Positions 10,236 through 40,031 of a stretch of 64,000 bases of DNA are shown here, piece after piece; position 1 is the stretch's first letter; each line of letters starts with the position of its first letter. The notes below the pieces were generated by a model. The model saw only the letters and a list, made by a program, of their open reading frames with translations, was not told where the DNA came from and ran no database searches. Source of the stretch: Mesobacillus subterraneus (GTDB lineage Bacteria; Bacillota; Bacilli; Bacillales; Cytobacillaceae); assembly GCF_020524355.2 (NCBI RefSeq), contig NZ_CP129019.1, positions 4,190,001 to 4,254,000 of the forward strand. The letters run 5' to 3'. The position numbers were made by a program, and so were the translations under genes.

Positions 10236-11171
10236 GTTAGCCTCACTTGTTACCGAAATTACCGCTCCTTCCCTTTTTCGGGCACATGGAGGCCTCTCTT
10301 GTTACCGAAATCACTGCTCCTTCCCTTTTTCGGGCACATGGCGGCCTCTCTTGTTACCGAAATTACTGCTCCTTCCCTTTTTCGGGCACATGGCGGCCTT
10401 ACTTGTTACCGAAATTACCGCTCCTTCCCTTTTTCGGGCACATGTTAGCCTCACTTGTTACCGAAATTACTGCTCCTTCCCTTTTTCGGGCACATGTTAG
10501 CCTCACTTGTTACCGAAATCACTGCTCCTTCCCTTTTTCGGGCACATGGCGGCCTCACTTGTTACCGAATTTACCGTTCCTTCCGGTTTTCGAGCACATG
10601 GCGGCCTCACTTGTTACCGAAATTACCGCTCCTTCCCTTTTTCGGGCACATGTTAGCCTCACTTGTTACCGAAATTACCGCTCCTTCCCTTTTTCGGGCA
10701 CATGGCGGCCTCACTTGTTACCGAAATTACCGCTCCTTACGGTTTTCGGGCACATGGCGGCCTCACTTGTTACCGAAATCACTGCTCCTTACCTTTTTCG
10801 GGCACATGTCGGCCTCACTTGTTACCGAAATTACCGCTCCTTACGGTTTTCGGGCACATGGCGGCCTCACTTGTTACCGAAATCACTGCTCCTTCCCTTT
10901 TTCGGGCACATGGCGGCCTCACTTGTTACCGAAATTACCGTTCCTTACGGTTTTCGGGCACATGGCGGCCTCACTTGTTACCGAAATTACCGTTCCTTAC
11001 GGTTTTCGGGCACATGGCGGCCTCACTTGTTACCGAAATCACTGCTCCTTCCCTTTTTCGGGCACATGGCGGCCTCACTTGTTACCGAAATCACTGCTCC
11101 TTCCCTTTTTCGGGCACATGGCGGCCTCACTTGTTACCGAAATTACCGTTCCTTCCGGTTTTCGGGCACAT
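10236..11171. repeat. Eighteen-copy 52-bp tandem array (locus R3)
   Basis: Eighteen consecutive units of exactly 52 bp, with no indel, fill the space between two convergent genes. Each unit contains GGCGGCC or GTTAGCC, then CTTGTTACCGAAA, a variable middle (TTACCG or TCACTG) and CCTTTTTCGGGCACAT or CGGTTTTCGGGCACAT. CGAAA and TTTCG form inverted arms 17 bp apart, with 25 bp to the next unit. Variants are shuffled between units. A degenerate half unit precedes it (10211-10235). All three plus frames stay open because 52 is not a multiple of three; this is not a protein gene. Confidence 0.95.
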
Positions 11172-11225
11172 ATTAGCCTTAATCGCCATTGTACTTCCAA
11201 CTTCCCCTTATATACTTATCCAAAT

Positions 11226-11266
11226 AAAAGGTCCTGCAGCTCAGTGAACTGCAGGACCTTTTTTTC
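11226..11266. terminator. Bidirectional terminator between the repeat array and the VOC gene
   Basis: A perfect 10-bp stem GGTCCTGCAG/CTGCAGGACC with a T-run on the plus side and a TTTTATTTG tail on the minus side. Confidence 0.92.
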
Positions 11267-11648
11267 ACCCAATCGGCGTACAGATTTCTATGTAGTGTCC
11301 ATCCGGGTCGGCTGCATAGGCGACAACCTGACCCCATGGTTTTTCGTTTGGCTCGAGCAGGATTGGGATTCCAGCGGCTCGCAGTGTTTCAACTGCGCCC
11401 GGGACATCCTCTGTTACAAACCCGAGCTCGAAGGTTTGTTCATTCCTTAGGCCATCCGGGATTGGGAGTGTCGTAATTTCACGGCCGCTTTCTCTTGTGT
11501 TCATCGACAGAACGGTATTGCCTGTTTCGTATTCGATGTAGGTTCCAAACTCATTACGAAGTTTCAGACCAAGCAGCTCTCCGTAAAAATGCTTTGTTTT
11601 TTCCAGGTCGGATACATATAGAATGACATAGCCCATTTTCATTTCCAT
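11265..11648 (-). CDS. VOC-family (glyoxalase/bleomycin resistance-type) protein
   Basis: A single-domain VOC protein of 127 residues. It has the typical start MGYVILYVSDLEKTKHFYGELLGLKLRNEFG, a centre EITTLPIPDGLRNEQTFELGFVTEDV, and the ending GQVVAYAADPDGHYIEICTP, where the final Glu is a usual metal ligand. The fold serves many metal-dependent enzymes and binding proteins, so the reaction is not known. The ATG at 11648 is preferred over the upstream GTG/ATG because AGAGGTGAT lies at the right distance. It stands between the cobalamin operon (same strand, upstream) and the terminator, and could be its last gene, though nothing ties it to B12. Confidence 0.85.
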   Translation of the reverse strand: MEMKMGYVILYVSDLEKTKHFYGELLGLKLRNEFGTYIEYETGNTVLSMNTRESGREITTLPIPDGLRNEQTFELGFVTEDVPGAVETLRAAGIPILLEPNEKPWGQVVAYAADPDGHYIEICTPIG

Positions 11649-11696
11649 TCTCATCACCTCTTATGAATACATTCGAGATGAAGTGGATTGTTTCCT

Positions 11697-13143
11697 TCAT
11701 AGATGCTTAAATGTGCTTTTGCTTGTTCTATAGTTCAGAATTGCTTGCTTCGTGCAGGTGGAAATCCCCTCGCTGATCAGCTTTCCGAGTGGTGTTGCGG
11801 TGCCTGCATACGAAGTTGTTCGGCCCTGCTGGGTTGCGGCGATGCAAATGCTGTCCGTAGATATGCCAGTTGACTGGCCAGCACTACCAGATCCACTCCC
11901 CTCCAGCTCATGCAAGACGCTTATTTTCGCCTCTGCCGCGGTCAGTGCGCTCTGGATAAAAGCCTCCTCGGAAATCCTGCCATTAATGAACAGCCATGTA
12001 TTGATATTCCTCGGTCTGTCACGTTGAGTATTCCCGGCCGAGACAATGATGAAAATGGAAAGGCCGTCACCTTCAAACAGTTGGTATGATGCGGTCTCTG
12101 CCGGAACAGCTGTCATCATCCCCACTGTCTCGCTTGGCAGGAAGCCGTTATCCTCCAGATATTCTGCCATTTCCGCCTTATGGTCGCTGCAGTCATATTC
12201 CATTGGTACAACTCGGTGTACGAACGAACTGTGCCAGCCAATCCCGGCACCAGTGATTCCCGAAGACATCGTCCTCAATGTCACTGGAGACTGGAGGACG
12301 ATCCGGTCTCGCCCTACATCCAGAAGCCTGCTGTCTATTGTAAGATTGGCTTCATGTACCCCGTCATCTTCTGGCAACAACAGCAATTGCGGCCTGGCAA
12401 TTTCCGGATGCGGATGGTTTTTAATCTGGGTTTTATAGACTCTTTTAATCCTTTCTTCTTTTAAAACCTCTACAGGAGAGTCAACTATCAAGACTTCACC
12501 ATTTTCCATTAACATTAGCCTGTCACAATATAAAGAAGCCAGATTCAAGTCATGAAAAATCGAGACGACCGTCAACTCCTCTTCCACCGCCCACTTTTTC
12601 AGCAAATCGAGCAGTTCCTTTTGAAAGCTGAGATCAAGATGGTTCGTCGGCTCATCGAGCAGGAGGATTCTGGGCTGTTGAGCCAATGCTTGCGCGAGAA
12701 ATACCCGCTGCTTTTCACCGCCGGACAATTCTACGATCGATTTATCCTGAAAGTGAGTTATCCCTGTCTGTTCCATCACCTTCTCGACAACCTGTTCATC
12801 CTCGGCTCGCCAGCTATTGAACCAGCCTTTCTGGTGTGCATAGCGCCCAAGTGATACAGTTTCTTTTACCGAATAAGGAAAGGCCTGTTCACCGTGCTGA
12901 GGCAGGACCGCCATCATCCTTGCAAGCTGCTTTGGTGAGTATTGTGTCAACGGACGTCCATCCACATCGATTGAACCTTCTCTGAAATCCAGAGCTCGGC
13001 TGATCATTTTTAAAAGGGTTGTTTTGCCGCTGCCATTGGGCCCAAGAATTCCAAACAACTCCCCCCTTGCAGACCTCGAAGGAAATTCCCTTTAACACCT
13101 CTCCGCCTGCATATCCGCCTGTCAAACTCTTCACTGTAATCAT
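11697..13143 (-). CDS. btuD: Cobalamin/cobamide ABC transporter ATPase fused to CbiZ amidohydrolase; one frameshift
   Basis: Residues 1 to about 250 are an ABC ATPase of the FecE/BtuD type: Walker A LGPNGSGKTT, Q-loop, signature LSGGEKQRVFLAQAL and Walker B ILLLDEPTNHLD. After a linker, about 260-480 is a CbiZ domain (TMSSGITGAGIGWHSSFVHR, IIVSAGNTQRDRP, NTWLFING), an adenosylcobinamide amidohydrolase that removes the aminopropanol or nucleotide-loop side for cobamide salvage. The fusion occurs in other Bacillaceae (YvrA-type). The frame is interrupted at a run of six C at 13061-13066; dropping one base joins MITVKSLTGGYAGG...EVCKG to ELFGILGPNGSGK and gives 481 residues. The start ATGA overlaps the btuC stop, implying translational coupling. 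The indel is probably a sequencing error. Confidence 0.9.
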
Positions 13144-14202
13144 CGGCCAGCACTTCTTTCCTTACGACTTCTCATTAAAATCAATGCAAAAACCGGAGCA
13201 CCGATCAAGGCTGTGATCACGCCAATCGGTAATTCTGATGGCGCGATGATTGTCCTCGATACAAGATCGGCAAGAATCAGAAAGCCGGCGCCGATCAGCA
13301 CAGATAACGGCAGCAAATGACGATGGTCCGGTCCCCAGACTGTCCTTGTCAGATGCGGGATGACGAGACCGACAAAGCCTATTGTCCCAGAGACCGCAAC
13401 CGCTGAGCCTGTTAAAAGAGAACCAGACAATAAGATCAGCAGCTTGCGGCGCTCGACATTGACACCCATGTGCTGCGCCCGTTCCTCACCGAAGGACATT
13501 GCATTTAACTCCCTGGTATTTGCAAGCAAAATCAGCAATCCAATAATAAAAAAAGGGAAAATAATATTGATGTATTCCCAGCCTCTCATCGACACGCTGC
13601 CAAGCAGCCAGCCTATGATTTGCCGCAGCTCCTCTCCAGATAAGGCAATCATCAATGAAATGAATGACCCAAGAAATGAACTTAGAATGATTCCAGTCAG
13701 AATAATCGTCTCAACCCTGAGCAGTCTGTCGACTCTCCGGGCAAAAAATAGCACAAACAACACGGTTGCGAATGCGAACAAAATGCTCAGCACCGGCAAC
13801 GTGAATGCCCCAACCAGCGGCATTGAGATCCCAAAAAACAGCGTGATGACCGCACCGATGGAGGCCCCTGATGAAATCCCCAGGGTATATGGATCTGCCA
13901 ACGGGTTACGGAGCAGTCCCTGGAATGCCGCACCGGCAATGGCAAGGGACGCACCGACTAGCCCTGCCAGCAAAACACGCGGCAGCCTGATATCCATGAC
14001 AATACTAGCATGCATCGGATCGATTCCCTGTCCCTGGTAGCGGAAAATCTCAGCACCAATGATTTTAATAATAGCGGGGTACAGGGATGGAAACCGTTCC
14101 GATTGATATGCCTAGCAGCATGGAAATGATTAAAAACGTTGCCGTGATCAGATAGGCTATTGCTTTACTATTTAAAAATGTCTGGATAAATGGCTTTTGC
14201 AA
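13140..14202 (-). CDS. btuC: Cobalamin ABC transporter permease (FecCD family); one frameshift
   Basis: A FecCD/BtuC permease with about ten membrane segments. It carries the family region RLPRVLLAGLVGASLAIAGAAFQGLLRNPLADPYTLGISSGASIGA and the coupling region GTIGFVGLVIPHLTRTVWGPDHRHLLPLS, which contacts the ATPase. The uninterrupted frame begins only at MHASIVMD (14015) and lacks the first helix. That helix (AIAYLITATFLIISMLLGIS) is in another frame upstream, and deleting one base of the GGGG at 14076-14079 restores a 353-residue protein. The TTG at 14202, inside the end of btuF and about 9 nt after AAGGAG, is the likely start. It works with BtuF (binding protein) and BtuD under the cobalamin riboswitch. 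Confidence 0.88.
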
Positions 14203-15121
14203 GCTCCTCTGCTCCTTCAGCGAGCCTTGGGCCAGAACGGGTTACGAGGTCAGAGTGGACATCGAATACCTGCTGGTCCTTGACTGCTTTTACATTATTC
14301 CAGCCTGGTCTCGCGAGAACCTGTTCGATTGGCTTGTCTGTATAATATCCATAGGTTGTCACAATCACATCGGGATTACGCTCGACGATTGCTTCAGGGT
14401 CAACTTTCGGCCAGCCATCCAGATCTCCGGCAGCGTTCTTCGCACCAATCAACTCAAGCATTTCATTGATAAAAGTGTTTTTGCCGGCAGTGTAGATTTC
14501 CGGCGCAGGCGAGACTTCTACAAAGACCGTTTTTTGCTCTTCCGGCTTGATTGCTTCAGCTTTCTTTTTCAATTCTGCAAAACTGTTATTCATCTTTTCT
14601 ACAAGCTGATCGGCTTTTTCTGTCTCGCCAATGGCCTTGCCAATCATCTCGATCGATACAAATACTTCTTCAAATGACTGTGCGTCATTCACAACGACAA
14701 CAGCAATTCCCGCATCCTTTAGCTGCTGAAGACCTTCTTTTACAGTGTCCGCAGTTGAACCAGGAGCAAGGACAAGGTCTGGCTTCAGAGAAATCATTTT
14801 TTCAATATTGAATTCCATGCCGCCGATTTTTTCCTTTGACATTGCATCCTCAGGATAATTATCGAAATCAGTGACGCCTACAATCGCCTCTCCGCTCTCA
14901 AGTGCGTATACAATTTCCGTATTGCTCGGAATCAGGGAAATGATTCTTTCAGGCTTTTCTTCTATGACCACTTCTTCATCAAGCGCATCTTTTACCGTGA
15001 CAGGGAATCCTGTTTTCTGCTCCTGCGCGGTTTTTTCGTTTTCCTTCTTTTCAGGCTGTGCTTCTGTACCGCAGCCAGCCAAGATCATGGCTGTCATCAA
15101 CAATAATAATAATTTTTTCAT
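14168..15121 (-). CDS. btuF: Cobalamin-binding lipoprotein BtuF
   Basis: A periplasmic-binding-protein class III lipoprotein of 317 residues that delivers cobamides to the BtuCD transporter outside the membrane. The signal MKKLLLLLMTAMILAGC has a clear lipobox (LAGC), followed by a charged linker EAQPEKKENEKTAQEQ. The binding fold begins VTVKDALDEEVVIEEKPERIISLIPSNTEIVYAL and includes VGVTDFDNYP, LAPGSTADTVK and a C-terminal GPRLAEGAEELAKAIYPDIF. The ATG at 15121 follows GGAGGAGAAGCAA; the TTG at 15136 is inside that ribosome site. First gene of the btuF-btuC-btuD operon, preceded by a B12 riboswitch and terminator, which makes cobalamin the likely ligand rather than ferric siderophore. Confidence 0.93.
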   Translation of the reverse strand: MKKLLLLLMTAMILAGCGTEAQPEKKENEKTAQEQKTGFPVTVKDALDEEVVIEEKPERIISLIPSNTEIVYALESGEAIVGVTDFDNYPEDAMSKEKIGGMEFNIEKMISLKPDLVLAPGSTADTVKEGLQQLKDAGIAVVVVNDAQSFEEVFVSIEMIGKAIGETEKADQLVEKMNNSFAELKKKAEAIKPEEQKTVFVEVSPAPEIYTAGKNTFINEMLELIGAKNAAGDLDGWPKVDPEAIVERNPDVIVTTYGYYTDKPIEQVLARPGWNNVKAVKDQQVFDVHSDLVTRSGPRLAEGAEELAKAIYPDIFK

Positions 15122-15205
15122 TTGCTTCTCCTCCAATTTTTCGGTTAGCTTCGTCTAATCAGGCTGTTAAATACCAGCATTTCGACTTCAACAAAGCTAT
15201 AAATA

Positions 15206-15240
15206 CTAAAAAAACATCTCCACCTGAAGGGGAGATGTCC
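15206..15240 (-). terminator. Terminator in the riboswitch expression platform
   Basis: The stem ACATCTCC/GGAGATGT followed by seven T on the minus strand lies between the cobalamin aptamer and btuF, so B12 binding probably controls premature termination. Confidence 0.88.
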
Positions 15241-15284
15241 GAGTAAGCAAATGTTTTTATCCTCATAAAAGACATAGAGCCTGT

Positions 15285-15490
15285 CGGCACCTCCCTATCC
15301 TCGTAGGTTTGCTGGTGCAATGGACAGGCAGGTCTCCTGGCTCATGGTCAATGCTCGCTGCGCCTTCCCATACGTTTGTACAGTGGCATAATGCAGCTTG
15401 CTCCCATTTACAGTGGCGGGACCGCGTTGGATTTTCACCAACTTCCCTATTAAGTCTTGTTTAAAAAGACACCTGTTCATTTCGATATGT
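15285..15490 (-). ncRNA. Cobalamin riboswitch (aptamer)
   Basis: On the minus strand the conserved blocks follow in order: GGGAAGTTGGTGAAAATCC, GCGGTCCCGCCACTGTAA, GTATGGGAAGGCGCAG and the B12 box GAGCCAGGAGACCTGCC. This is the known adenosylcobalamin aptamer architecture. It stands upstream of btuF and explains the control of the transporter operon. Ends are approximate. Confidence 0.95.
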
Positions 15491-15558
15491 AATTTTCCGC
15501 TAAACCCCATTATACACGATTTGCCAGAAATTGCTCCAAAAATTTTGCTTTTCCGACT

Positions 15559-16335
15559 TTATTGGGCAAGCAGACTCCACTCTTTTACTTTTTTATCAAA
15601 AACTAGCCTGCCGTCAGGATTACTGCGGCTTGCTTCTTTATATTCATCATGCATGTCATCCATATTGGCAAAATCTCCGATGATCCAAATCGGTATTTCA
15701 ATTCTGCTGCGGTTTTGCTGGATGTTTTTGAGCGAAAAAACCGCCCCTTCCTTCATCGCAGGCGTCAATGATTTCAGGATTTCCTTGCTGATAGCTGGGT
15801 AGGACTTCTTTTTCCTGATTCCCAGCAATGTTTTTTCTGGTTTCATTTCACCTAGCTTTCCGGACAGGACCGTACCGAGCATCCGGAAAAAATCATTAAA
15901 GTTGCGGTAGTATATTTTGTTGAACCAGCCATCCTCATGGGAAAGAAAAACAAAGCGATTATTGAGCTGGTTATAAAATGGCTGCTTCAAATGGTGCTTG
16001 ATATGGCCTAGATAAAGAAGCTCGGCAATCTCCTGGACCGTCAGCACATTCAGCGCTTCCACTTCCTCAAAATCGATCCAGCAAAAATCACCGTATGCAT
16101 GGACATTTGCGGCGACCAACTTTTCAACGCTGTCTTCAGGTACAAATTCAAATAAGGTATGTCTATTGAACTCACCATCCTCATAACGATGCTTCAGCAG
16201 CAGCAGATGGTTAAGCGAATCAGACAGTGACCTTGCAAATTCATGAAATTCCATACCATGCGAGAGCACGTACTGGTCCCGCTCGTTCAAATGGACATAT
16301 AGTATATCCCTGCTATAAGGATGGTTCTTTTTCAA
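15559..16335 (-). CDS. Conserved hypothetical protein, about 258 residues
   Basis: I do not recognise a named family. The protein is soluble with no signal peptide or membrane segment. It begins KKNHPYSRDILYVHLNERDQYVLSHGMEF and ends RLVFDKKVKEWSLLAQ, with an Arg/Lys-rich centre (IRKKKSYPAIS). The TTG at 16335 is preferred because GGGAGGT lies nine bases upstream; the longer frame to 16398 has no ribosome site. Composition and codon use look like the neighbours, so it is a real chromosomal gene. It sits alone between the cobalamin riboswitch and a divergent RodA-type gene. Its role is unknown. Confidence 0.75.
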   Translation of the reverse strand: MKKNHPYSRDILYVHLNERDQYVLSHGMEFHEFARSLSDSLNHLLLLKHRYEDGEFNRHTLFEFVPEDSVEKLVAANVHAYGDFCWIDFEEVEALNVLTVQEIAELLYLGHIKHHLKQPFYNQLNNRFVFLSHEDGWFNKIYYRNFNDFFRMLGTVLSGKLGEMKPEKTLLGIRKKKSYPAISKEILKSLTPAMKEGAVFSLKNIQQNRSRIEIPIWIIGDFANMDDMHDEYKEASRSNPDGRLVFDKKVKEWSLLAQ

Positions 16336-20777: not shown

Positions 20778-22588
20778 TTGAACAATTATTTTTATAATGG
20801 CTGGGACAGCATTCTTGGCAAGCTGCCAAATATGCTGATCGCGCTCGCAGTCCTTCTTGTCGGGTGGCTTGTCGCAAAATTAATCGAAAAAGCAGTTTAT
20901 AAGGGGCTGCAGAAAACGAGCCTTGATAACAAGCTTTTTTCAAACGTAAATAATAAAAAGTACTCAGCGGAAAAGATCATCAGCAAGATTGTCTATATTT
21001 TAATTCTAGTATTTGTCTTCATCATGTTCCTGAATATCTTAGATTTATATGTTTTGACGGAGCCGCTCGTCGGAATGTTCTCAACGATTGCCGCAGCGAT
21101 CCCGAACATACTGAAAGCAGGTTTGATTCTGTTATTTGCCTGGTTGATTGCATCAGGGCTGAAGTTCCTGATCCAAAAAGGCGGCAAGACGCTCGGTGTC
21201 CATGAAAAACTGAGCAAGTACAAGCTAACGGACGATAACCAGCAGACTACAAACGCAGTTGACACGGTTGCAAACATCGTCTTCTATCTTGTGTTGCTAA
21301 TGGCGTTGCCGGCCGTATTATCCGCACTGAACCTGCATGGCGTTTCACAGCCTTTCGAAAACATGATCGAGGGAATCCTTTCTTTCATTCCTAAATTATT
21401 TGCAGCAGCGCTGATTCTTTTAGTCGGTTATTTTGTTGCTAAAATCGTCCGTGATATCCTGACGAACTTTTTACAAAGCATTGGCACTGAAAAATTAGTT
21501 CAGCGATTTGGGATTTCCCGGTTATTTGAAGGCACTAGCCTTTCACGAGTGATCGGCACAATTGCTTTCGTATTGATTTTGATTCCGACGGTCATCGCTG
21601 CTCTTGAGCGCCTTGATGTCGAAGGAATATCTGAACCAGCCATCGCGATGCTGAACGATATCCTGACGATGATTCCAAATATCGTTGTGGTACCATCATC
21701 CTTGTCATGATTGGCTTATGGCTTGGAAAGTGGCTGAAGAAATTCACAACCGATTTATTAAGAAGAATTGGCTTTGACTCTTATTTTAAAGGAGTAATGG
21801 TAGGCGGGGCAGCAAAGCGTCCTAACTCATTAAGCTTGTCAGAAGTTGTCGGCTATATCGTCCAGGTCATTGTTGTCCTGCTATTTGTAGCTGAAGCATT
21901 GAATGTAGTGAATCTTGATTTCTTCGTCGACCTGGCACGAGGCGTAATTGCTTATTTGCCTAATGTGATTGCGGCAATTGTTATCCTTGGTGGCCTGTGG
22001 CTCGCCGGCCTTGCAAAGAAAGTTCTCAGCAGTATCCTGCAAGGAGACTCTTCCAATGTGCTCGCAACTGTCGCAAAATATGCGATTATCACAATTGCTG
22101 TCTTCATGGCCCTAGACCAGCTTGGAGTAGCACCAGCAATCGTGAACGCAGCAGCATTCATCCTGACACTTGGCGGACTGGCGCTTGCGTTCGGACTGGC
22201 ATTTGGTCTTGGCGGCAAGAACTTCGCGTCGAAATACCTGGCTAAGTTCGATGATAAAATCGAAAAAACCAGCATTGACCATGAAGCAGTCCAGCAGCAG
22301 AAAATGAAAAAGAACAACCCAGTCAACCCGAACCATGCAACACAACCAAACCTGAACAATCTGAACCAGAATCCAAACCCTGGTACTGGACCAGATGTAA
22401 ACAATAAGTACGAGAATCCTGGTACTGGACCAGACTTAAACAATAAGTACCAGAATCCTGGTACTGGACCAGACTTAAACAATAAGTATCAGAATCCTGG
22501 TACTGGACCCAAATTGAACAACCGGAACCAGAATGGTAACAATAACCCTATGGATCCTCATAATGATAACAACCCTATGAATCCTTAG
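20778..22588 (+). CDS. Mechanosensitive channel-like protein with repeated TM-helix domains; one frameshift
   Basis: The reconstructed protein is about 603 residues. It contains repeated conserved membrane-helix units (KLPNMLIALAVLLVGWLVAKLIEK, IPNILKAGLILLFAWLIASGLK, IPKLFAAALILLVGYFVAKIVRD and so on, each P-N/K-...-G-W/Y), the arrangement of small-conductance channel-like proteins. The C-terminal hydrophilic tail has four 13-residue repeats (NPGTGPDLNNKYQ). The frame breaks at 21689-21690, where GTTGTGGTACC reads into a stop; adding one G gives NIVVGTIILVMIGLWLGKW and joins both parts. The start is the TTG at 20778, eight bases after AAGGAG; a GTG at 20769 overlaps that site. No canonical MscS beta domain is obvious, so channel activity is inferred. 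Confidence 0.85.
22382..22537 (+). repeat. Four 39-bp in-frame repeats in the channel gene tail
   Basis: GGTACTGGACC starts at 22382, 22421, 22460 and 22499, a 39-bp period that encodes NPGTGPDxNNKYx. The Gly/Pro/Asn-rich tail is probably disordered and could vary in copy number between strains. Confidence 0.85.
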
Positions 22589-25101: not shown

Positions 25102-25168
25102 CTTCCGTGTGTCCGATAGCCCCCTCCTATTGGACACTTTTTCCCGCTTCCGCCTTCCGTTTGTCCCA
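25102..25168. repeat. Single copy plus partial second copy of a 52-bp unit (locus R8)
   Basis: CTTCCGT...TGTCC occurs at 25102 and again at 25154. TGTCC (25110-25114), a 17-bp gap and GGACA (25132-25136) form inverted arms, and the next TGTCC starts at 25162, exactly 52 bp on. This is the same 5-17-5-25 spacing as R3 and R5, with unrelated bases. Confidence 0.6.
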
Positions 25169-26774: not shown

Positions 26775-26812
26775 TAAAAAAACAAGCCCTGATTACTCAG
26801 AGCTTGTTTGTA
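26775..26812 (-). terminator. Terminator of cspD
   Basis: ACAAGCTCTGA-GTAA-TCAGGGCTTGT followed by TTTTTTT on the minus strand, 16 bp past the stop. Confidence 0.9.
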
Positions 26813-26827
26813 TGGGCTAATCCGTTA

Positions 26828-27028
26828 TTATAGTTTTGTAACGTTAGCTGCTTGTGGTCCACGAGCGCCTTGCTCAACGTCGAAAGAAACTTCTTGGCCT
26901 TCTTCAAGAGTCTTGAAGCCTTCGCCTTGGATAGCTGAGAAGTGTACGAATACGTCTTCTCCACCTTCACGTTCGATGAATCCGAAACCTTTTTCTGCGT
27001 TAAACCATTTTACTTTACCGTTTTCCAT
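26828..27028 (-). CDS. cspD: Cold-shock protein (CspA/CspD family)
   Basis: A 66-residue single cold-shock domain: [20 protein letters not shown] with RNP1 [11 protein letters not shown]2 DVFVHFSAI, and the ending [10 protein letters not shown]. These proteins bind single-stranded RNA/DNA and act as RNA chaperones in cold and stationary phase. The ATG at 27028 with GGGAGG upstream is the real start; an upstream in-frame codon only adds the untranslated leader. The long 5' leader (27029 to about 27180) is common for cold-shock genes. The paralogue name (cspB, cspC or cspD) is a guess from similarity. Confidence 0.92.
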
Positions 27029-27300
27029 TTTTGTTGCCTCCCTAGTGTGATATCCACACAATTTGTTACTATTCTTGTCTCAGTGATATCCAGGCGAATC
27101 AAGCAGTGCATGTTCTTTCCTTGCATACCGAACAAAAATAATTCTTCCTAAGAATAACAGAATTGATAGGATAGTGCAAGCATTTAGGAATTTTCCAAAA
27201 ACAGGATTTTATAAATAATCATGCAAAAGCCCATAATGGATTAATAAAAGTGAATCAAAAAATGTGGTATAATTAAGAGAACATGAAAGGGCGTGGCTAA

Positions 27301-29969: not shown

Positions 29970-30023
29970 ATAAGGCTAATTGTCTCAGATTTTAATTTTT
30001 TCACTAAGAAGTTTATTTGTCCC

Positions 30024-30272
30024 GTCATCCACCTTTAGGTTGGATGGCGCTTTTTTTGGATTCGATTCTTTTTGGGTCTCAATCGCCTGTGTGGATGGCC
30101 CTTTTGTTGGGATTTGCTCCTTTTCGTGTCTCCATCGACCCAATGGATGGCGCTTTTTTTCGGGATTCGCTTCTTTTTGGGTCTACGACTCTATGGATGA
30201 CGTTTTATTCACCGAGGACTCCTTTTCGTGTCTCCATCCCCTCTATGGATGCGGATTTTTTCGAGATTCGTA
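30024..30272. repeat. Five-unit, 50-52-bp repeat of terminator-like hairpins (locus R4)
   Basis: TGGATG starts at 30041, 30092, 30144, 30194 and 30246 (spacing 51, 52, 50, 52). Units 1, 3 and 5 have an upstream inverted arm (CATCCA-N9-TGGATG, CCAT-N7-ATGG) and most are followed by a short GC stretch and a T-run. On the plus strand each intact unit looks like a Rho-independent terminator. It lies between the NERD gene and the convergent glmS. Confidence 0.8.
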
Positions 30273-32141: not shown

Positions 32142-32165
32142 AACTTCTTTTCCTCCTGTACGACA

Positions 32166-32251: not shown

Positions 32252-32420
32252 CTCGTTAGTTTTAGCATCCCCATCTCTTTGTGCATTAAGTTGCCTTAAT
32301 GTTTTAAAGATGGAATTCGCGGCTGTGCATTCAGCCGGGAGGCATCCGCCGAAACTTCGATAAACCTCCACCTCGTCAACTAATCCACACTTACGGTCAA
32401 GAATTAGTCCTGGCGCTTTA
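32252..32420 (-). ncRNA. glmS ribozyme/riboswitch
   Basis: The minus strand carries AGCGCCAGGACTAATT, GTTGACGAGGTGGAGG, TTATCGAAGTTTCGGCG and GATGCCTCCCGGCTG in the order of the glmS self-cleaving RNA, followed by the pairing arm ATTAAGGCAACTTAATGC. Cleavage is expected just 5' of GCGCC near 32417. Glucosamine-6-phosphate promotes cleavage and lowers glmS expression. Ends are approximate. Confidence 0.95.
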
Positions 32421-32611
32421 ATTTTCCATTGATCTACCTCTGCCCACCTTTCGATAACATCGTTTTTTAAGGCTTACTACATTAACAGCCTCATTTACAA
32501 AAACAGGATAATCATACATGATACACATGCATTCGTCAATAGAAAACAAAGGAAAACAGCCTTCCCGTACAATTACCCTTTATATTCTGGCTAAAACTTC
32601 CCTTCACAAGA

Positions 32612-32721: not shown

Positions 32722-32765
32722 TTACACTTCTCTATGTGAAGAACAATAAACTTTCTCTATAAATA

Positions 32766-32814: not shown

Positions 32815-32819
32815 GATTG

Positions 32820-34169
32820 CTATTCTTTTAATCCCATTTCTTCTTCAACTACCACAGCAATTCTTCTTACATATTCTTCACAAAGCTCTGCCGTTGCTGC
32901 TTCTGCCATGACACGTACCAATGGCTCCGTGCCCGATGGACGAACAAGGATGCGGCCATTGCCGTTCATTTCCGCCTCAACCTGTTCAATCACAGCTTTT
33001 ACCTTTTCATTATCTGTTACATGATGCTTATCAGTCACCCGGATATTCACGAGGACCTGAGGGTATTTCTTCATTTCTCCAGCCAGTTCAGAAAGCGGCT
33101 TGTTCGTAGCGTTCATGATATTGGCTAGCTGAAGACCTGTTAGCAAGCCGTCACCTGTTGTGTTGTAATCAAGGAAGATGATATGCCCTGACTGCTCTCC
33201 GCCAAGGTTGTAACCATTCTTCTTCATTTCTTCAACTACATAGCGGTCGCCAACCGCAGTCTGAACACTTTGGACCCCGTGCTCTTCCAGGCCTTTGTAA
33301 AAACCAAGGTTGCTCATTACGGTAGAAACAACTGTACCCTGCTTCAGCTGGCCTCTTTCCTTCAAGAACTTGCCGCAAATGTACATGATTTGGTCGCCAT
33401 CAACGATGTTCCCCTTTTCATCAATCGCAATCAGGCGGTCGCCATCTCCATCAAACGCAAGCCCAAGATCTGCACCCTTTTCTTTAACGAATGCTGCAAG
33501 TGCTTCAGGATGAGTTGATCCAACACCATCATTGATATTCAACCCGTTAGGCGATGCGCCCATTGTGGAAGTATCCGCATCAAGGTCAGCGAACAAGTGC
33601 GTTGCCAATGAGGAGGTTGCTCCATGTGCACAGTCAAGCGCGATATGCAGCCCCGTGAACTCTTCATCTATAGATTGCTTTAGATACTGAAGGTACTTTT
33701 GTCCGCCTTCAAAGTAATCATTCACCTGGCCAAGATTAGCTCCTACAGGACGAGGAAGCTGATCCACTTCCAAATCCATCAATTGCTCGATTTCATTCTC
33801 TTGATCATCAGATAGCTTATATCCGTCCGGGCCAAAGAATTTGATGCCATTATCCGCAACTGGATTGTGAGAGGCAGAAATCATGACTCCAGCCTGCGCG
33901 CCAAGGGCCTTTGTCAAATACGATACCCCTGGAGTGGAGATGACGCCGAGCCTCATGACTTCCGCTCCAATCGATAATAGACCGGCAACTAGTGCTCCTT
34001 CAAGCATATGTCCAGAAATACGAGTGTCCCTTCCAATTAAAACTTTAGGGCGATCATGTTCCTTTGTAAGGACATAGCCTCCAAAGCGGCCAAGCTTAAA
34101 GGCTAATTCTGGTGTTAATTCGCTGTTCGCAACACCACGTACTCCATCTGTACCGAAATATTTACCCAT
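32820..34169 (-). CDS. glmM: Phosphoglucosamine mutase
   Basis: A protein of 449 residues that converts glucosamine-6-phosphate to glucosamine-1-phosphate for UDP-GlcNAc. It starts [14 protein letters not shown], has the phosphoserine loop [20 protein letters not shown], the metal loop [11 protein letters not shown], the sugar-specificity loop [10 protein letters not shown] and the phosphate-binding [12 protein letters not shown] near the C-terminus. All hallmark residues are present. It follows cdaA and cdaR; in Bacillus CdaA, CdaR and GlmM form a complex in which GlmM restrains c-di-AMP synthesis. Confidence 0.97.
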
Positions 34170-34206
34170 TCTTAAAATCTCTCCTTGTATGAAAAATTGC
34201 AGTCAA

Positions 34207-35438
34207 TTACGCATCTTTTTTCGCAACCGATATACTGGCTTTTTCTTTAGCCAATTTCCACGTTATGTTTTGAGGTGCTGTCACCTTCATGTCGACTTCA
34301 TGATTTCCTTCACCCAGTTCCGACACATCGATCAGAATCTTAAAATCATCAGATGACAGGGATGAAACAATTTCACTGGCCCAGAAATGGTTAGAATCGT
34401 CTGACCGTTTTCAGGATCAAGGAAATCGACTTCATACCCCTCATCTATCCCACCGATATCTATAGGGACATTGGAGATCCTTTTTTCGGAAGCCTTTGTA
34501 ACTTTCAAGGCCACTTTTACCGTTTCAGGTGATATCTTGACAATTCCTTCACCAATGATTACTGGGAGAGTGATCTCCGTATCCTCGTCAACCTTACTAA
34601 CATCCACTTCTACCCTGACATTATCAAATTTCTCGAGAACGCTTGGGTCAGCAATAATCTCCGCTTCCTTCGTTTCCAACGTTATTGAATCGATTGTGAC
34701 TCCACTTGGAGGAGTCCCTTTCCGTACAATATTAATAGGTACCATCTTACTTGAGCTTTTAATCGGAATGGTTACCTCGACAACTTGAGGGTCCACGATG
34801 ACATTAAGCTTGTTCATATCTTTATCCAGAGCAAGCACGCTTGCTTCTCTTGTGATTGTTTCTGATATCTTTCCTGATGAATTGACAGTAGCTTTGACAA
34901 AGGTGATTTTATCAACTACATCTTTAGCCCCTGTAATTTTGACTTTATTAGGCTTGACCGCTGGCTTCTCAGCTAGATAGCCTTCCTCAACTATATTACC
35001 GCTGAACTCAGCCTCCACCTTGAATTCTTTCGTTACCTTCTCCTGGATGGAAACATTCGCATAACCAGGTTCAATAGTAACGGTCAGGCGATCCGAGACA
35101 TCTTTAATCGTAATTGGGACTCGCTGATTTCCGAGTTCCGCATCTGTCAAATCTACGAACACTTCGAAATTCCTTAGAGTTTTCGCCTGCTGAACAAGGT
35201 TTTTCGGTCCCTGCAGCGTGATTGAAACAGTTTCAGGAACACCAGATACTACCAGGGTGTCTGTATCATAAATCCTTTTTACTGGCACTTCTTCAATCGT
35301 CTCCACCTTTTCATCTGAAGGCACATTCACATCACTAGGCTTATCTGGATCGTTTTTAGGTACAGACCCAAAGAGCAGGACGGCAAGAACCAGGGCAACT
35401 ACTTTTATGAACCAGGGATTATCCATCCATTTATCCAT
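34207..35438 (-). CDS. cdaR: CdaR (YbbR), regulator of CdaA; one frameshift near the C-terminus
   Basis: A protein of about 410 residues with one N-terminal membrane anchor (WFIKVVALVLAVLLFGSV) and repeated extracytoplasmic YbbR domains (PVKRIYDTDTLVVSGVPETVSITLQGP and similar). It controls the diadenylate cyclase CdaA. The uninterrupted frame ends with an unrelated tail at 34332; the family ending (SEIVSSLSSDDFKILIDVSE, LGEGNHEVDMKVTAPQNITW, up to VAKKDA) is in the next frame. Adding one base within 34377-34383 (GGCCC) restores it, with a stop at 34207. It is shorter than B. subtilis CdaR (483 residues), consistent with one domain fewer. The start overlaps the end of cdaA by eight bases. Confidence 0.88.
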
Positions 35439-36259
35439 TTTTCTTCCCCCTCCAATTCCAGCGGGTAGAAGCGGCCTGCTTGATTCTTGATGGAGAAATC
35501 AGCTCGGCTGTGAGCAGTTCCCTTAGCGTTTCCCCGCTCAAATCACGGTAAAGTTCGCCATTCCGGGTAACTGATAACATTCCCTGTCTCCTCAGAAACA
35601 ACGATCGTGATACTGTCTGTGACTTCACTGATTCCCAGTGCAGCCCTGTGCCGTGTACCCAGCTCCTTCGAAATGAACGGACTTTCCGACAGCGGCAAAT
35701 AACAGGCAGCCGCTGCTACGATGTTTTTCTGTATGACTACAGCTCCATCATGAAGCGGTGTATTCGGTATAAAAAGATTAATCAACAGTTCAGAAGAGAT
35801 TCTGGATTGAAGCTGTATTCCTGTTTCTATGTAATCACTCATTCCTGTTTCTCTTTCAATTGAGATCAATGCTCCGATTCGGCGCTTAGCCATATAATCG
35901 GTTGCCTTGATAATGGCCTCCACCATCTTCTCTTCATCTTCCTCTTCCTGCAGCCCTGATCTGGCAAATAGCCGTCCTCTGCCGAGCTGTTCGAGTGCCC
36001 GCCGCAATTCGGGCTGGAAGATGATGATAATGACCAAGAATCCCCAGGTCAGTACTTGTTCCATCATCCAGCTAAGAGTATTCAATCCGAAGTAATCACT
36101 GACAAACTTTACGATCAGGATGACAAAGATTCCTTTTAAAAGCTGGACAGCCTTTGTCCCTCGAATTATCGCAATCAGCTTATAAATGACGAACCAAACC
36201 AGGAGAATGTCAACAATATAAGCTAGATATTCCAAAAAATCGAAATCCGCAAACGACAT
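35431..36259 (-). CDS. cdaA: Diadenylate cyclase CdaA; one frameshift
   Basis: The membrane-bound c-di-AMP synthase. Three hydrophobic segments (DILLVWFVIYKLIAI, LLKGIFVILIVKF, VLTWGFLVIIIIFQPELRRALEQLG) precede the DAC domain: ISIERETGMSDYI, LHDGAVVIQ (DGA) and LGTRHRAALGISEVTDS (RHR), both active-site motifs. The intact frame ends early at 35543 after EETGNVISYPEW; the family ending LSVTRNGELYRDL...STRWNWRGKKNG is in another frame. Removing one C from CCC at 35582-35584 gives a 275-residue protein of usual size. The ATG at 36259 follows CTGGAGGAAGTGCA. In most Firmicutes c-di-AMP is essential, so the break is likely a sequence error. Confidence 0.92.
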
Positions 36260-36524
36260 TGCACTTCCTCCAGTTGTTTAGTAAGACTCTTTCAGAAAAG
36301 CCGCTAACCTTCCTGAAAGTTCAATCAGCCTTGTAGTAGAGCTTTTTTCGTTAAAATGACGAAAAAAGCCAGACGTAAAAAAAGCGGAAGATGACCAATG
36401 CACTTCAGCCTATAAACCAAGATAACTTTCTTATTATAACACAAGCACTGTTTAAATTAATAATGATGTCATTTGTAGAAACCTTGTCTATTTACCCTCA
36501 TTCACCCTTTTTAAAAGAGACTCT

Positions 36525-36560
36525 TAAAAAACAGCCATTCCTACTGGAATGACTGTTCCT
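36525..36560 (-). terminator. Terminator after rsiW
   Basis: AACAGTCATTCC-AGTA-GGAATGGCTGTT then TTTTAAG on the minus strand overlaps the last codons of rsiW, separating the sigma factor pair from cdaA. Confidence 0.85.
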
Positions 36561-37192
36561 TTTCCTCATTTTCAAAAAGGTCTGCCGTGCTTTTAGCCGT
36601 CTTCTTTATATGGTACCAAATCCACTCGAATATCTCATTGACTTCATTTATTTCACCAGTGACGTTACCAGCTGAAGCTAGATATTTCTCACCATTGATC
36701 AACTCACCGTTAATCACTGTGACATTCCCCTGGACCTCACCCTCGATTTTGACCTTGCCATTTCTGACAACGACATCTCCCTTGACAACTTCTCCTTCAG
36801 GGACAATAACTGTATCATTTTCGACAATCAGATTAGGCTGTTTCGATACAGAAAACTGGTGTTCTTGATTCCAGGTCGAAAAGATGCTCCCTGTCATCAG
36901 CGCCAGGAAAAGCGAGGCAGCTGTTAAAACCGGATGACTCCTGAACCAACGCTGGATTTCCGTTTTTCTTTTCTCTCGGCAGGCCAGACATTACCTTTGA
37001 AGTAAAATCATCTGGTGCCTGGATGTGAGAGGTGCTCTGAACAAGAGCGATGGCTTTATTCAGCTCCCTGAAATATTCCTGGCAATCTGAACAGCTTTGC
37101 AGGTGTTCTCTTAAAATCTTTTCATGTTCTTCAGAGATTTCTTCATCTAGATATTCATGCATATAATCAATAATTTGTTCCGAGCATTTCAT
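36541..37192 (-). CDS. rsiW: Anti-sigma-W factor RsiW; one frameshift
   Basis: The N-terminal zinc anti-sigma domain is in one frame (KCSEQIIDYMHEYLDEEISEEHEKILREHLQSCSDCQEYF: H-x3-C-x2-C pattern) and the transmembrane and extracytoplasmic part in another (LTAASLFLALMTGSIFSTW, then KGDVVVRNGKVKIEGEVQGNVT). One extra A in a five-A run (T at 36963-36967) separates them; correction joins GLPREKK to TEIQRWFRSHPVL and gives 216 residues. RsiW holds SigW inactive at the membrane until proteases (PrsW, RasP) cut it under envelope stress. It follows sigW by 16 bp, the known arrangement. Confidence 0.92.
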
Positions 37193-37208
37193 ATTCTTTC
37201 ACCTCACC

Positions 37209-37772
37209 TTATACGTGTCGCAACTGTTGCCTTAAGGCTTCTCTTCCTCGATGGATTCTCGTCTTCACTGTGCCAAGAGGCAAATCCAGTATTTCACTGA
37301 TCTCATTCAGGCTGAGTTCTTCAATATACTTTAATACGATGACCGACCTGTATTTATCGGGTAGTTTTGAAATTTCTTTTTGAATCGCATCCTGCAATTC
37401 GATACTTTCAACCTCATCCTCTGGCAAACGCGTTTCAGATGGGACCTGAGAGTACATGGTTAGGCCCTCTGTTCCGGGCACTTCCGCATCCAGAAAGTAA
37501 TCTGGTTTCTTTTTGCGAATCCGGTCAATACATAGATTTGTGGCAATTCTATAAAGCCATGTTGAAAACTTCAAGTTTTGATTGAAGCTGTTGATATTGA
37601 TATATGCACGGATAAAAGCTTCTTGTGAAATATCCTCTGCCTCATGCCGATTCCCAAGCATACGGTAGCAAAGCTGGAACACCTTGTCCTTGTATACCTC
37701 AACAATCTCTCCATAGGCATTCTGGTCTCCCTTGATTACCTGTTTTATTCTGTGTTTTACAATTGTCTCCAT
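37209..37772 (-). CDS. sigW: ECF RNA polymerase sigma factor SigW
   Basis: An ECF sigma factor of 187 residues, the same length as B. subtilis SigW. Region 2 is QLCYRMLGNRHEAEDISQEAFIRAY (-10 recognition) with FSTWLYRIATNLCIDRIRKKK, and region 4 is LPDKYRSVIVLKYIEELSLNEISEILDLPLGTVKTRIHRGR (-35 recognition helix). It directs envelope-stress genes, activated by antibiotics, alkaline shock or detergents. The ATG at 37772 follows GGAGGTAAAATA. A match to the SigW promoter lies just upstream, so it is autoregulated. It is cotranscribed with rsiW. Confidence 0.96.
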   Translation of the reverse strand: METIVKHRIKQVIKGDQNAYGEIVEVYKDKVFQLCYRMLGNRHEAEDISQEAFIRAYININSFNQNLKFSTWLYRIATNLCIDRIRKKKPDYFLDAEVPGTEGLTMYSQVPSETRLPEDEVESIELQDAIQKEISKLPDKYRSVIVLKYIEELSLNEISEILDLPLGTVKTRIHRGREALRQQLRHV

Positions 37773-37807
37773 TATTTTACCTCCGCGCTTCATGCGGCTA
37801 ATCGATA

Positions 37808-37834
37808 TACGAATCGATTCCGTAAAAGGTTTCG
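37808..37834 (-). promoter_or_regulatory. Autoregulatory SigW promoter
   Basis: On the minus strand CGAAACCTTT-N13-CGTATA lies 36 bp upstream of sigW. It matches the known consensus TGAAAC-N16/17-CGTA except for the first base. Confidence 0.85.
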
Positions 37835-38020
37835 TTTTTTTTTATAAAAACTTTATTTATGTATGTAATTGACAAAATCATCTACTAACTGACTTATTTT
37901 TGCAAAAAAAGTCTAAAAAACACGATAAGTTAATATTAACAAATTACTACCAGTTTGGTTTAAAAAGTTTTGGCTGGGGTATAAATGAACTATATTTTAT
38001 TGAAGGCGAGGAAACAATTA

Positions 38021-38191
38021 ATGTGTGCAGAAACGTTGTTGAAGGATATTGAGAATTGCCGTAAAGAGATGGTTGAATTAGCTGCAAAAACCTCGCTGTC
38101 AAATCAACGGGTTGTCGACATCAGTACTAAACTCGACCATTTACTAAATAAATATTATCACTTATCATCCAAAAATTCATTTCTATATTAA
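38021..38191 (+). CDS. Spo0E-family aspartyl-phosphate phosphatase-like peptide
   Basis: A 56-residue protein of the Spo0E/YnzD type: two helices with CAETLLKDIENCRKEMVELAAK and the signature SLSNQRVVDISTKLDHLLNKYY. Spo0E proteins dephosphorylate Spo0A~P and delay sporulation. The ATG at 38021 follows GGCGAGGAAACAATTA; an alternative start at 37985 would add 12 residues and also has a possible site (TGGGGT). It stands between sigW and rocF and reads in the opposite direction, so it is an independent unit. Confidence 0.78.
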   Translation: MCAETLLKDIENCRKEMVELAAKTSLSNQRVVDISTKLDHLLNKYYHLSSKNSFLY

Positions 38192-38199
38192 TAATAAGA

Positions 38200-38242
38200 G
38201 AGCAGCAGCCAGACATTTGGCCGCTGCTCCCTATTTTTTATC
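38200..38242. terminator. Terminator between the Spo0E-like gene and rocF
   Basis: GAGCAGC(A)GCCA-GACATT-TGGC(C)GCTGCTC is followed by TATTTTTTATC on the plus strand; on the minus strand the tail TCTTATTATTA is poorer. Confidence 0.8.
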
Positions 38243-38276
38243 ACTACTATGAGCCTATTCTAAAACTGCCGGAGCA

Positions 38277-39173
38277 TTACAAAAGTTTCTCTCCAAATAA
38301 AGAACCCATCAACGCTACTGCTGCGACAGCTGTCTTATTCTTTTCATCAAGTATAGGATTTACTTCGACGAATTCAGCTGAAGTGATGATTTTTGCCTCA
38401 GCCAGCATCTCCATTGCCAGATGGCTCTCACGGTAACTGATCCCTCCGATTACCGGGGTACCGACGCCAGGAGCATCTGTTGGGTCCAGCCCATCCAAAT
38501 CAAGTGAAAGATGGACGCCATCTGTCTTATCTTTCAGGTAATTGACTGTTTCCTCAATGACCGTGGCCATTCCGAGACGATCGATCTCGTGCATTGTAAA
38601 CACTTTAATGCCCATTTCCTTGATTAGGTCCTTCTCCCCCTCATCCAATGAACGTGCCCCGATGATGACTATGTTTTCCGGTTTTACCTTTGGTGAAAAT
38701 CCACCTAATTGAGTTAACATTTCATGTCCCAACCCAAGGCTGGCAGCAAGCGGCATTCCGTGGATGTTCCCAGATGGTGAAGTATCTGCTGTATTCAGGT
38801 CACCATGTGCATCATACCAAATCACACCCAGATTTTTATAGTGCTTAGATACACCAGTCAAAGTGCCAATCGCAATACTGTGGTCTCCTCCTAATACAAG
38901 TGGGAATGATCCAGAATCAATAATCCTGTCTACCTCATCAGCAAGCAAAGCATTTTTCTCTGCTACAAGCTCCAGATTGCGAAGATTGCTGTTAGGATCA
39001 ATCTTTACCTCTGGTCTTCCAACGGCTATATCTCCCAAATCCTCTATCTCATCAAATAACACTCTCAATCGTTCATTTATTCCAGCATAACGGATCGCAC
39101 TTGGGCCCATGTCGACTCCCCTTCTCATCTGCCCCAAATCCATCGGCATGCCAATAATCGAAAGTTTCTTCAT
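38277..39173 (-). CDS. rocF: Arginase
   Basis: A 298-residue enzyme that hydrolyses arginine to ornithine and urea. The binuclear manganese site is complete: LVLGGDHSIAIGT, WYDAHGDLNT (D-x-H-x-D), and SLDLDGLDPTDAPGVGTP with the catalytic/substrate region SGNIHGMPLAASLG. The N-terminus SIIGMPMDLGQMRRGVDMGPSAIR and C-terminus EVNPILDEKNKTAVAAVALMGSLFG are standard. The ATG at 39173 follows AGGGGGAGAAATAT. A cre-like site is 38 bp upstream, suggesting carbon catabolite control; no AhrC box was identified by eye. Confidence 0.96.
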   Translation of the reverse strand: MKKLSIIGMPMDLGQMRRGVDMGPSAIRYAGINERLRVLFDEIEDLGDIAVGRPEVKIDPNSNLRNLELVAEKNALLADEVDRIIDSGSFPLVLGGDHSIAIGTLTGVSKHYKNLGVIWYDAHGDLNTADTSPSGNIHGMPLAASLGLGHEMLTQLGGFSPKVKPENIVIIGARSLDEGEKDLIKEMGIKVFTMHEIDRLGMATVIEETVNYLKDKTDGVHLSLDLDGLDPTDAPGVGTPVIGGISYRESHLAMEMLAEAKIITSAEFVEVNPILDEKNKTAVAAVALMGSLFGEKLL

Positions 39174-39211
39174 ATATTTCTCCCCCTTGCTTTCTCTTAT
39201 CTACACTCTAT

Positions 39212-39225
39212 TTTAAACGCTTTCA
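39212..39225 (-). promoter_or_regulatory. Predicted cre (CcpA) site upstream of rocF
   Basis: TGAAAGCGTTTAAA on the minus strand fits the cre consensus TGWAANCGNTNWCA at 13 of 14 positions. It lies 38 bp upstream of the start codon. Confidence 0.5.
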
Positions 39226-39407
39226 TTCAAATGACTCAACCGGACAGTTTCATGAATATATATACGGTTTGGAATTCAGCGAATTTACGGACTGATTTAA
39301 GGGATTCATACCACCAACTCGTTAGAGAGTGTGAACATTCTTGGTGAAGAAATACGGCAGCCCCCACCCTTCGATCTGCACTTTCTTGTCAGGTTGGGGC
39401 TCCTCAG

Positions 39408-40031
39408 CCTGAAACCTGTCACAATAACTGCTTTTTCTTGACAGCTTTGAGTTCCGATACCTGAAACCTGTCATAATAAGTGCTTTTTCTTGACAACTTT
39501 GGGCTCCTCAGCCTGAAACCTGTCATAATAACTGCCTTTTCTTGACAACTTTGAGCTCCGCAGCCTGAAACCTGTCATAATAACTGCCTTTTCTTGACAA
39601 CTTTGAGCTCCGCAGCCTGAAACCTGTCATAATAACTGCCTTTTCTTGACAACTTTGAGCTCCTCAGCCTGAAACCTGTCATAATAACTGCAATTTCTTG
39701 ACAGCTTAGGGCTCCGCAGCCTGAAACCTGTCACAATAACTGCTTTTTCTTGACAGCTTTGAGTTCCGATACCTGAAACCTGTCATAATAACTGCCTTTT
39801 CTTGACAACTTTGGGCTCCTCAGCCTGAAACCTGTCATAATAACTGCCTTTTCTTGACAACTTTGAGCTCCGCAGCCTGTAACCTGTCATAATAACTGCA
39901 ATTTCTTGACAGCTTAGGTCTCCGCATCCTGAGACCTGTCACAATAACTGCTTTTTCTTGACAGCTTTGAGCTCCATTAGCTGAAACCCGTCACAATTAC
40001 ACTGGCTTCTTGACAACTCTAGCCCTTTCTC
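39408..40031. repeat. Twelve-copy 52-bp tandem array (locus R5)
   Basis: Units starting CCTGAAACCTGTCA begin every 52 bp from 39408 to 39980 without an indel. Each has CCTGTCA, then ATAATAACTG, then CTTGACAAC or CTTGACAGC, ending GCTCCGCAG or GTTCCGATA. TGTCA (unit positions 10-14) and TGACA (32-36) are inverted arms 17 bp apart, and the linker is 25 bp. A degenerate half unit precedes it (39381-39407). It fills the space between rocF and the rRNA/tRNA operon terminator. Confidence 0.95.

Follow-up and report, generated by a model that had tools for sequence, protein, structure and literature searches.

The 64,000-nucleotide stretch of the Mesobacillus subterraneus chromosome analysed here (the window; contig NZ_CP129019.1, positions 4,190,001 to 4,254,000) contains tandem arrays of 52-bp units, and we find that such arrays have both a fixed anatomy and a direction. 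In most of their sequence families, two inverted 5-bp arms are separated by a loop of 17 bp and followed by a linker of 25 bp. In the two large families the half-sites around these arms are conserved in sequence, including positions that mismatch, while the middles of the spacers are free in sequence and fixed in length. The arrays are oriented with replication, and one of them persists at an orthologous site. On balance it seems probable from the sequence that the arrays are helically phased, polar lattices of paired protein-binding half-sites on double-stranded DNA.

Geometry of the 52-bp unit

Tandem arrays were called by Tandem Repeats Finder (TRF), and arm pairs and 52-bp steps in the window were located by exact-arm pattern and lag-52 scans. 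The features concerned are, in window positions:

10240-11171, minus strand: array R3, family F1, about 18 units (TRF period 52, 17.9 copies, 92% matches)
10254-10305: a unit of R3, with arm CGAAA (10254-10258), loop of 17 (10259-10275), arm TTTCG (10276-10280) and linker of 25 (10281-10305)
39399-40018, minus strand: array R5, family F2, about 12 units (TRF period 52, 11.9 copies)
39417-39468: a unit of R5, with arm TGTCA (39417-39421), loop of 17 (39422-39438), arm TGACA (39439-39443) and linker of 25 (39444-39468)
25110-25166: R8, a single unit TGTCC-N17-GGACA-N25-TGTCC, the next TGTCC standing at 25162
30016-~30240 (end approximate): fourth 52-bp array, family F9 (GGATGG...); TRF 30041-30184, 2.8 copies; lag-52 scan 30016-30168; decayed units by eye
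38277-39173, minus strand: arginase gene (TIGR01229 rocF_arginase, 350 bits, cut-off 227.6), the anchor of the orthologue test

The sequence-only reading of this DNA had assigned R3, R5 and R8 a common 5-17-5-25 layout, which exact arm pairs confirm for all three; for the two longer ones TRF agrees on the period of 52. R3 has 17 copies of CGAAA-N17-TTTCG between 10254 and 11138, set in 52-bp steps with one double step across a unit with an altered arm; the arm after the listed unit begins at 10306. TGTCA-N17-TGACA occurs 11 times in R5, from 39417 to 39937, again in 52-bp steps and with the arm after the listed unit beginning at 39469. R8-like arms are found also in L057, a two-copy array at 1.786 Mb. 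All three loci are thus real, but the fourth array was missing from the earlier finding. It lacks the 17/25 arms and has relatives at 2.174 and 0.7255 Mb; in its relatives L047 and L048 the 5-bp arms stand at 7/35 in place of 17/25, and the layout is accordingly not common to every 52-bp array.

The chromosome is a single contig of 4.79 Mb. With R3, R5 and the fourth array as DNA queries, 37 further loci were found in it (hits grouped by hand), and TRF on 36 stretches from these loci returned 35 arrays of period 52, with none of that period in three of the stretches (L039, L045, L046). Twenty extra 20-kb stretches placed elsewhere gave seven more arrays of period 52 or 53, mostly of other sequence families; 20-21-bp arrays were present in four of the same stretches, and the remaining periods were scattered, coding and non-coding unsorted. 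Together with three arrays of the window this makes a set of 45 (44 of period 52 and one of 53, with up to 25 copies) in about ten sequence families. The arrays sit between long open reading frames (ORFs) and 52 is no multiple of three, as expected of non-coding DNA.

One geometry indeed recurs over different sequences far beyond chance. Perfect 5-bp inverted arms at gap 17 are present in 35 of the 45 consensi, against a mean of 1.6 and a maximum of 5 in 200 shuffles. Families weigh more than array counts here, because related arrays are not independent: with one representative per family (n=10), eight include gap 17, while L067 has 19 and F9 has 7. The eight are F1 (CGAAA), F2 (TGTCA), F3 (TGTCC, with a 10-bp arm and a 7-base centre), F5 (TTGTCCGAA), L051 (CGGTT), L062 (TACCCTTAT, 53 bp), L027a and L057/R8. 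L051 differs from F1 in the inner arm, both arms being altered in step. Among 27 published consensi from other Bacillus species (PMC8161180, Table 1), some of them related to one another, perfect arms stand at gap 17 in seven and at gap 15 in nine, the shuffle mean for gap 17 being 0.47.

For the two largest sets, units were aligned by their arms on the leading strand: 220 units from 18 F2 arrays (at least three exact units each) and 94 units from nine F1 arrays. F2 reads AAAGC-TGTCA-AGAAA, about 7 free bases, AATTG-TGACA-GGTTT, about 15 free bases; F1 reads ACATGTGCC-CGAAA, at most 17 free bases, TTTCG-GTAACA, about 11 free bases. On the purine-rich leading strand, which is the minus strand in the window, R3 itself departs from F1 with CCATGTGCC, and the R5 consensus from F2 with AAAGT and ATTATGACA. 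Within each large family the half-sites, about 11-15 bp each, are thus conserved in sequence. At free positions, mismatch between arrays reaches about 40 to 80% of comparisons, 75% being expected for unrelated bases of even composition; the F1 loop has 0.64, and the central parts of the F2 loop and linker have about 0.5-0.8.

The lengths of these free spacers hardly vary. Counted from exact-arm units, so that units with broken arms fall outside, the loop is 17 in 98/99 (F1), 245/248 (F2) and 24/24 (F3) cases and the linker 25 in 94/95, 241/252 and 26/27, respectively; pooled over F1 and F2, the loop is 17 in 343/347 and the linker 25 in 335/347. When named genomes were scanned with any gap from 7 to 27 allowed, the matches listed came from 116 stretches, with titles for 80 of them. 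At loci with hits at multiples of 52, gap 17 accounted for 84 of the 84 hits listed; the 103 listed hits elsewhere, mostly from unrelated taxa as far as titles show, spread over 20 gap lengths with seven at gap 17. Measured by hand, the distances from one half-site centre to the next are about 22 and 30 bp in F2, and in F1 about 31 and 21 bp, close to two and three helical turns.

The proposal that spacing is conserved while bases vary therefore holds for the lengths of loop and linker and for their middles, and fails for the half-sites; given their conservation, the suggestion that a shape is selected in place of a binding sequence finds no support. The loci had also been said to have no sequence in common, but TGTC...GACA is present in R5 as well as in R8, and published repeats of four species, B. 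coagulans, B. litoralis, B. thermoamylovorans and B. alkalitelluris, contain it too. As a separate observation, a core TCATAAGGGT(G/C)ATGA inside the 52-bp unit is common to L060 (16043-16299), B. coagulans 8_52_18 and B. litoralis 42_52_9; the class therefore has some sequence conservation across species.

Orientation with replication

The sign of GC skew changes near 1.85-1.9 Mb, which marks the terminus, and flips between 4.38-4.40 Mb (-0.110) and 4.46 Mb (+0.065), which marks the origin. Relative to these points, the family signatures lie on the replication strand in 32 of 34 arrays of the genome (F1 11/11, F2 21/23). One F2 array with nearly symmetric arms, L044, was scored by majority (12 signature hits vs 1). 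The leading strand is also purine-rich in 17/17 arrays of one chromosome arm and 25/28 of the other, although genome skew would by itself lead one to expect some of this purine bias. As a control, CAACTGGTATTA, a family of 21-bp repeats in this genome, is non-polar, with four of eight loci each way.

Neighbouring genes do not explain the orientation. Seven arrays have both neighbours running against replication and are nevertheless oriented with it (L013, L030, L032, L034, L042, L044 and L067), six judged by signature and L067 by purine content, with gene calls being crude long ORFs. The polarity therefore ties the arrays to replication rather than to adjacent genes, and it brings the question of their function within reach of direct tests.

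In the complete relatives covered, every unit listed behaves in the same way. Their origin was inferred from the position of the arginase gene, not from skew: it lies on the plus strand about 0.18 Mb from the contig start in G009, G011, G016 and G019, and at 4.64 Mb in G018. The F1 half-site is orientation-consistent in 49 of 49 cases in five relatives. In G009 the F2 half-site has 98 forward matches, all below 2.21 Mb, and 46 reverse ones; the two reverse matches listed stand at 2.745 Mb, and from the positional order of the matches listed the other 44 should lie beyond that point. G011 has 16 forward matches below 2.33 Mb and nine reverse ones above 4.07 Mb.

Occurrence in relatives and persistence at the arginase site

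Rarity of 52-bp periods had been named as an outcome that would speak against a shared geometry; instead, the period proved common in this genome and in its relatives. With an open gap, the F2 arm pair has 233 matches in the M. subterraneus genome, where its reversed form has 8; the pair is matched 8 to 286 times in 20 relatives of the genus and 2 to 21 times in 20 genomes outside it. Arrays of the F2 pattern with 52-bp period are also present in Mesobacillus selenatarsenatis, M. boroniphilus, Cytobacillus oceanisediminis and several Bacillus sp. records. A record titled Chryseobacterium sp. ISL-80 (L149), an assembly that is probably mislabelled or contaminated, likewise has F2 units spaced by 52 bp.

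Ten 20-kb stretches from ten genus relatives held five more 52-bp arrays. General loss of arrays from relatives poor in F2 was considered and rejected: relatives selected mainly because F2 hits were few in them still had five arrays of period 52 or 53 in 20 stretches, one of them (L273) F2-like and the remaining four belonging to other families. One of the relatives, G008, has long 40- and 42-bp arrays of 15 and 22 copies (L266, 1487-2100 and 3612-4523). Another repeated element, a 34-bp tandem repeat (CTCGAG...AGCTGCGGCTCC), occurs with similar sequence at two places of the M. subterraneus genome (L048 4535-4638 and L061 16953-17022).

R5 is flanked by arginase on one side and a tRNA cluster on the other. 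In 15 of 21 genomes of the genus, M. subterraneus included, TRF finds an array of period 52 upstream of the arginase gene. A sixteenth genome, G017, has motif units there on a contig ending about 0.3 kb upstream. No array was seen upstream of arginase in G002, G008, G010, G015 and G019, the sequence of G008 and G010 being cut about 0.5 kb upstream. The F2 units at this site share the direction of the window, with the exception of one reverse motif hit in G007, and keep the loop at 17 in 90/92 and the linker at 25 in 97/104 cases. Copy number ranges from about 2 to 16 while position and direction persist. The idea that turnover is too fast for common sites can be rejected for R5.

Elsewhere in the window, R3 sits between two convergent ORFs, for which an MFS transporter and a glyoxalase-type protein are the best NCBIfam matches, both below curated cut-offs. 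Mechanical ORFs cross R3 in three frames and were not counted as genes; they are expected because the 52-bp repeat is stop-free. The fourth array lies 3´ of a 600-aa ORF that follows a glmS ribozyme (32259-32428). This ribozyme, a cspA-like thermoregulator match (26778-27159) and a cobalamin riboswitch (15310-15491) are all on the minus strand. Tandem arrays of 20-21 bp, or two helical turns, a companion class of the 52-bp arrays, stand at 421-517, 6395-6507 and 55709-55802. A 39-bp tandem repeat at 22364-22534 lies inside an ORF (21707-22588) and is probably an amino-acid repeat, since its period is a multiple of three.

Possible nature of the arrays and compared systems

We suggest the following course for a lattice of paired half-sites. 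The 52-bp unit would correspond to five turns at 10.4 bp and carry two inverted half-sites, related but non-identical, whose spacing near two and three turns would let all of them face about one side of the DNA. A predicted protein, probably oligomerising, would bind along the array; the asymmetry of left and right half-sites would give the protein-DNA complex a direction, and this direction may serve replication-linked organisation or segregation of the chromosome. The sequence families could correspond to paralogous or co-evolving proteins. Phasing at about two and five turns, and phased protein contact as a candidate, are the parts of the sequence-only reading that our results support; that reading is thus partly supported, right on spacing and on candidate protein contact, wrong on sequence conservation and on the class being undescribed. 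Somewhat speculatively, it is possible that the arrays are chromosome-wide direction signs, oriented with the fork on both arms and read by a so far undescribed DNA-architecture or segregation protein of Bacillaceae, with spacing selected and half-sites diversified.

Several observations weigh against the lattice. Neither a binding protein nor a footprint has been described, and no gene was linked to the presence of arrays. Spacer length is not absolute, as F2 linkers of 24 (eight) and 26 (three) and a 53-bp array exist. Perfect arms at gap 17 are missing in F9 arrays and in 20 of the 27 published families, eight of which have no perfect 5-bp dyad at any gap. Arrays may be dispensable, for five 20-kb stretches of G008 contain none of 52 bp. 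Position h7 of F2 is G/T in 200/275 units and pairable in RNA. Three arrays oppose replication: signature and purine content show this for L043 and L027b, family and purine content for L047. They lie at 2.08 (L043), 2.17 (L047) and 2.87 Mb (L027), two of them within about 0.3 Mb of the terminus. A local inversion behind them was rejected, the flanking GC skew being that of their arm. Evidence for polarity covers one genus, and a pattern search in 150 genomes of the order reached no array of B. coagulans, giving three single hits there. Finally, strand-biased birth of arrays could yield polarity without function.

The last point leads to the main rival, a mechanistic ruler: selfish or neutral amplification linked to replication, by slippage or template switching on lagging-strand single-stranded DNA, with a built-in step of 52 nt. 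It would also account for the polarity, for one period across many sequence families, and for the variable copy number at one orthologous site and array ends that appear decayed by eye. We nevertheless regard it as unlikely. Arrays agree with one another in their half-sites and differ in the middles of their spacers, a pattern not predicted by pure slippage; loop and linker are each fixed, beyond their sum; and the 21-bp family of the same genome is non-polar. A candidate enzyme family, Y1_Tnp (PF01797, of IS200/RAYT type, RAYT standing for REP-associated tyrosine transposase, with REP as explained below), has no match in the genome at E 0.001, the same search being positive in 5 of 14 control genomes, and spread by such an HUH transposase as a source of polarity was rejected on this negative search.

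Transcribed hairpin chains, acting as small RNAs or protein sponges (one idea of Subirana and Messeguer), had also been among the earlier suggestions, and we hold them to be quite unlikely. The arms can pair, F2 h7 leaves room for a stem, and 52-nt arrays of B. coagulans are detected in RNA-seq (PMC8625621). RNA folding is modest overall: folds of the plus strand reach z -3.6 (R8) and z -2.9 (R3), with -1.8 for R5; on the leading side, the values are -0.7 (R3), -2.0 (R5) and -2.0 (R8). Against this stands the pairing test, in which 146 F1 and 275 F2 units were followed by phase, beyond exact arms. Conserved and non-pairing are F1 h15 (C/T in 141/146), F2 h5 (A/A in 261/275) and F2 h15 (G/G in 220/275); F2 h8 is A/G in 197/275 and A/A in 58/275, non-pairing in 98%. 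Stem pairing, whose conservation is expected of a structured RNA, is thus not conserved in F1 and F2, while F3 and R8, outside that test, pair well. Selection for pairing should purge conserved mismatches, therefore two related, distinct half-sites are favoured over hairpins, which are weakened as an explanation and may still form in the TGTCC family. Moreover, orientation tracks replication and not flanking genes in all seven discriminating arrays, an Rfam search of the window arrays gave no family at gathering score, and a fixed 25-nt linker is not obviously needed by an RNA. Ordinary transcription-factor operators, amplified as intergenic decoys or local regulators without a chromosome-level role, appear very improbable: dyad half-sites are operator-like, and the CGAA of F1 resembles the box of PurR described below, but the genome holds about ten families with arrays of up to 25 copies, and by crude long-ORF calls only 3/45 arrays lie between divergent genes vs 12 between convergent ones.

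If the lattice protein exists, it would mean a further, new level at which many Firmicutes organise their chromosome, and the half-sites are concrete baits for finding it. The strongest new facts, fixed-length spacers with free middles and replication polarity, give anatomy and direction to a known oddity of fixed size and free sequence. The 52-nt class is not without a name, as the sequence-only reading had supposed: tandem repeats of 52 and 20-21 nt with constant size and variable sequence, of unknown function, were described in Bacillus and other Firmicutes by Subirana and Messeguer, who studied 176 genomes, met 52-nt repeats in about 30% of their Bacillus species, noted short sequences, often with their reverse, within one 52-nt repeat, and suggested RNA or a nucleoid protein (PMC8161180). 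They list 52-nt repeats for B. selenatarsenatis, shared with B. boroniphilus and B. subterraneus (PMC8161180); the same repeat class is treated in PMC8625621 and PMC6749651. Their repeats and our arrays are alike in a period of 51-53, non-coding position, many families of unrelated sequence per genome and 20-21-nt companion arrays. Unlike the present report, PMC8161180 describes neither spacers fixed at 17/25 nor a dyad axis common to the families, and it mentions neither conserved mismatches nor replication polarity; it finds conservation of arrays between strains only partial, and it states that 52-nt sequences are not conserved, while its own Table 1 shows TGTC...GACA across species. The geometry shared by different sequence families across the genome looks new, as does the strict replication polarity of the two main families. 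Neither is reported in the texts read here or in the literature listings searched, though an earlier account of the class, which Subirana and Messeguer reportedly gave in J Bacteriol in 2020 and which we know through their 2021 text, may contain some of it.

PurR of B. subtilis binds PurBox pairs, boxes of 14 bp that have CGAA at their centre and are separated by a spacer of 16-17 bp (PMC8789054). PurBox and F1 are alike in inverted CGAA half-sites at a fixed distance; on these figures and by our own arithmetic, however, a PurBox needs CGAA and TTCG about 26-27 bp apart, where F1 has 19 (loop) and 25 (linker). PurR boxes were rejected on this unmatched spacing, F1 being moreover just one of the families. 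BIMEs (bacterial interspersed mosaic elements) of enterobacteria are intergenic tandem units of alternating inverted half-elements, the REPs (repetitive extragenic palindromes), which are compact palindromes tied to RAYT genes, without a fixed 52-bp period. Our arrays resemble them in being intergenic, tandem and built of inverted half-elements, and differ in the 52-bp period and in the lack of a RAYT match. KOPS (FtsK-orienting polar sequences), SRS (SpoIIIE recognition sequences) and Chi are polar chromosome motifs, strand-biased with replication. Identity with SRS or Chi was rejected: SRS, GAGAAGGG, has zero occurrences in the 45 arrays, and AGCGG, with 36 leading and 0 lagging occurrences, exceeds 21.6, the average over 5-mers with this composition, yet is less common than four of them, GGAGC (75), GCGGA, CGGAG and GAGGC. 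What KOPS/SRS and Chi have in common with the arrays described here is a strand bias that follows replication.

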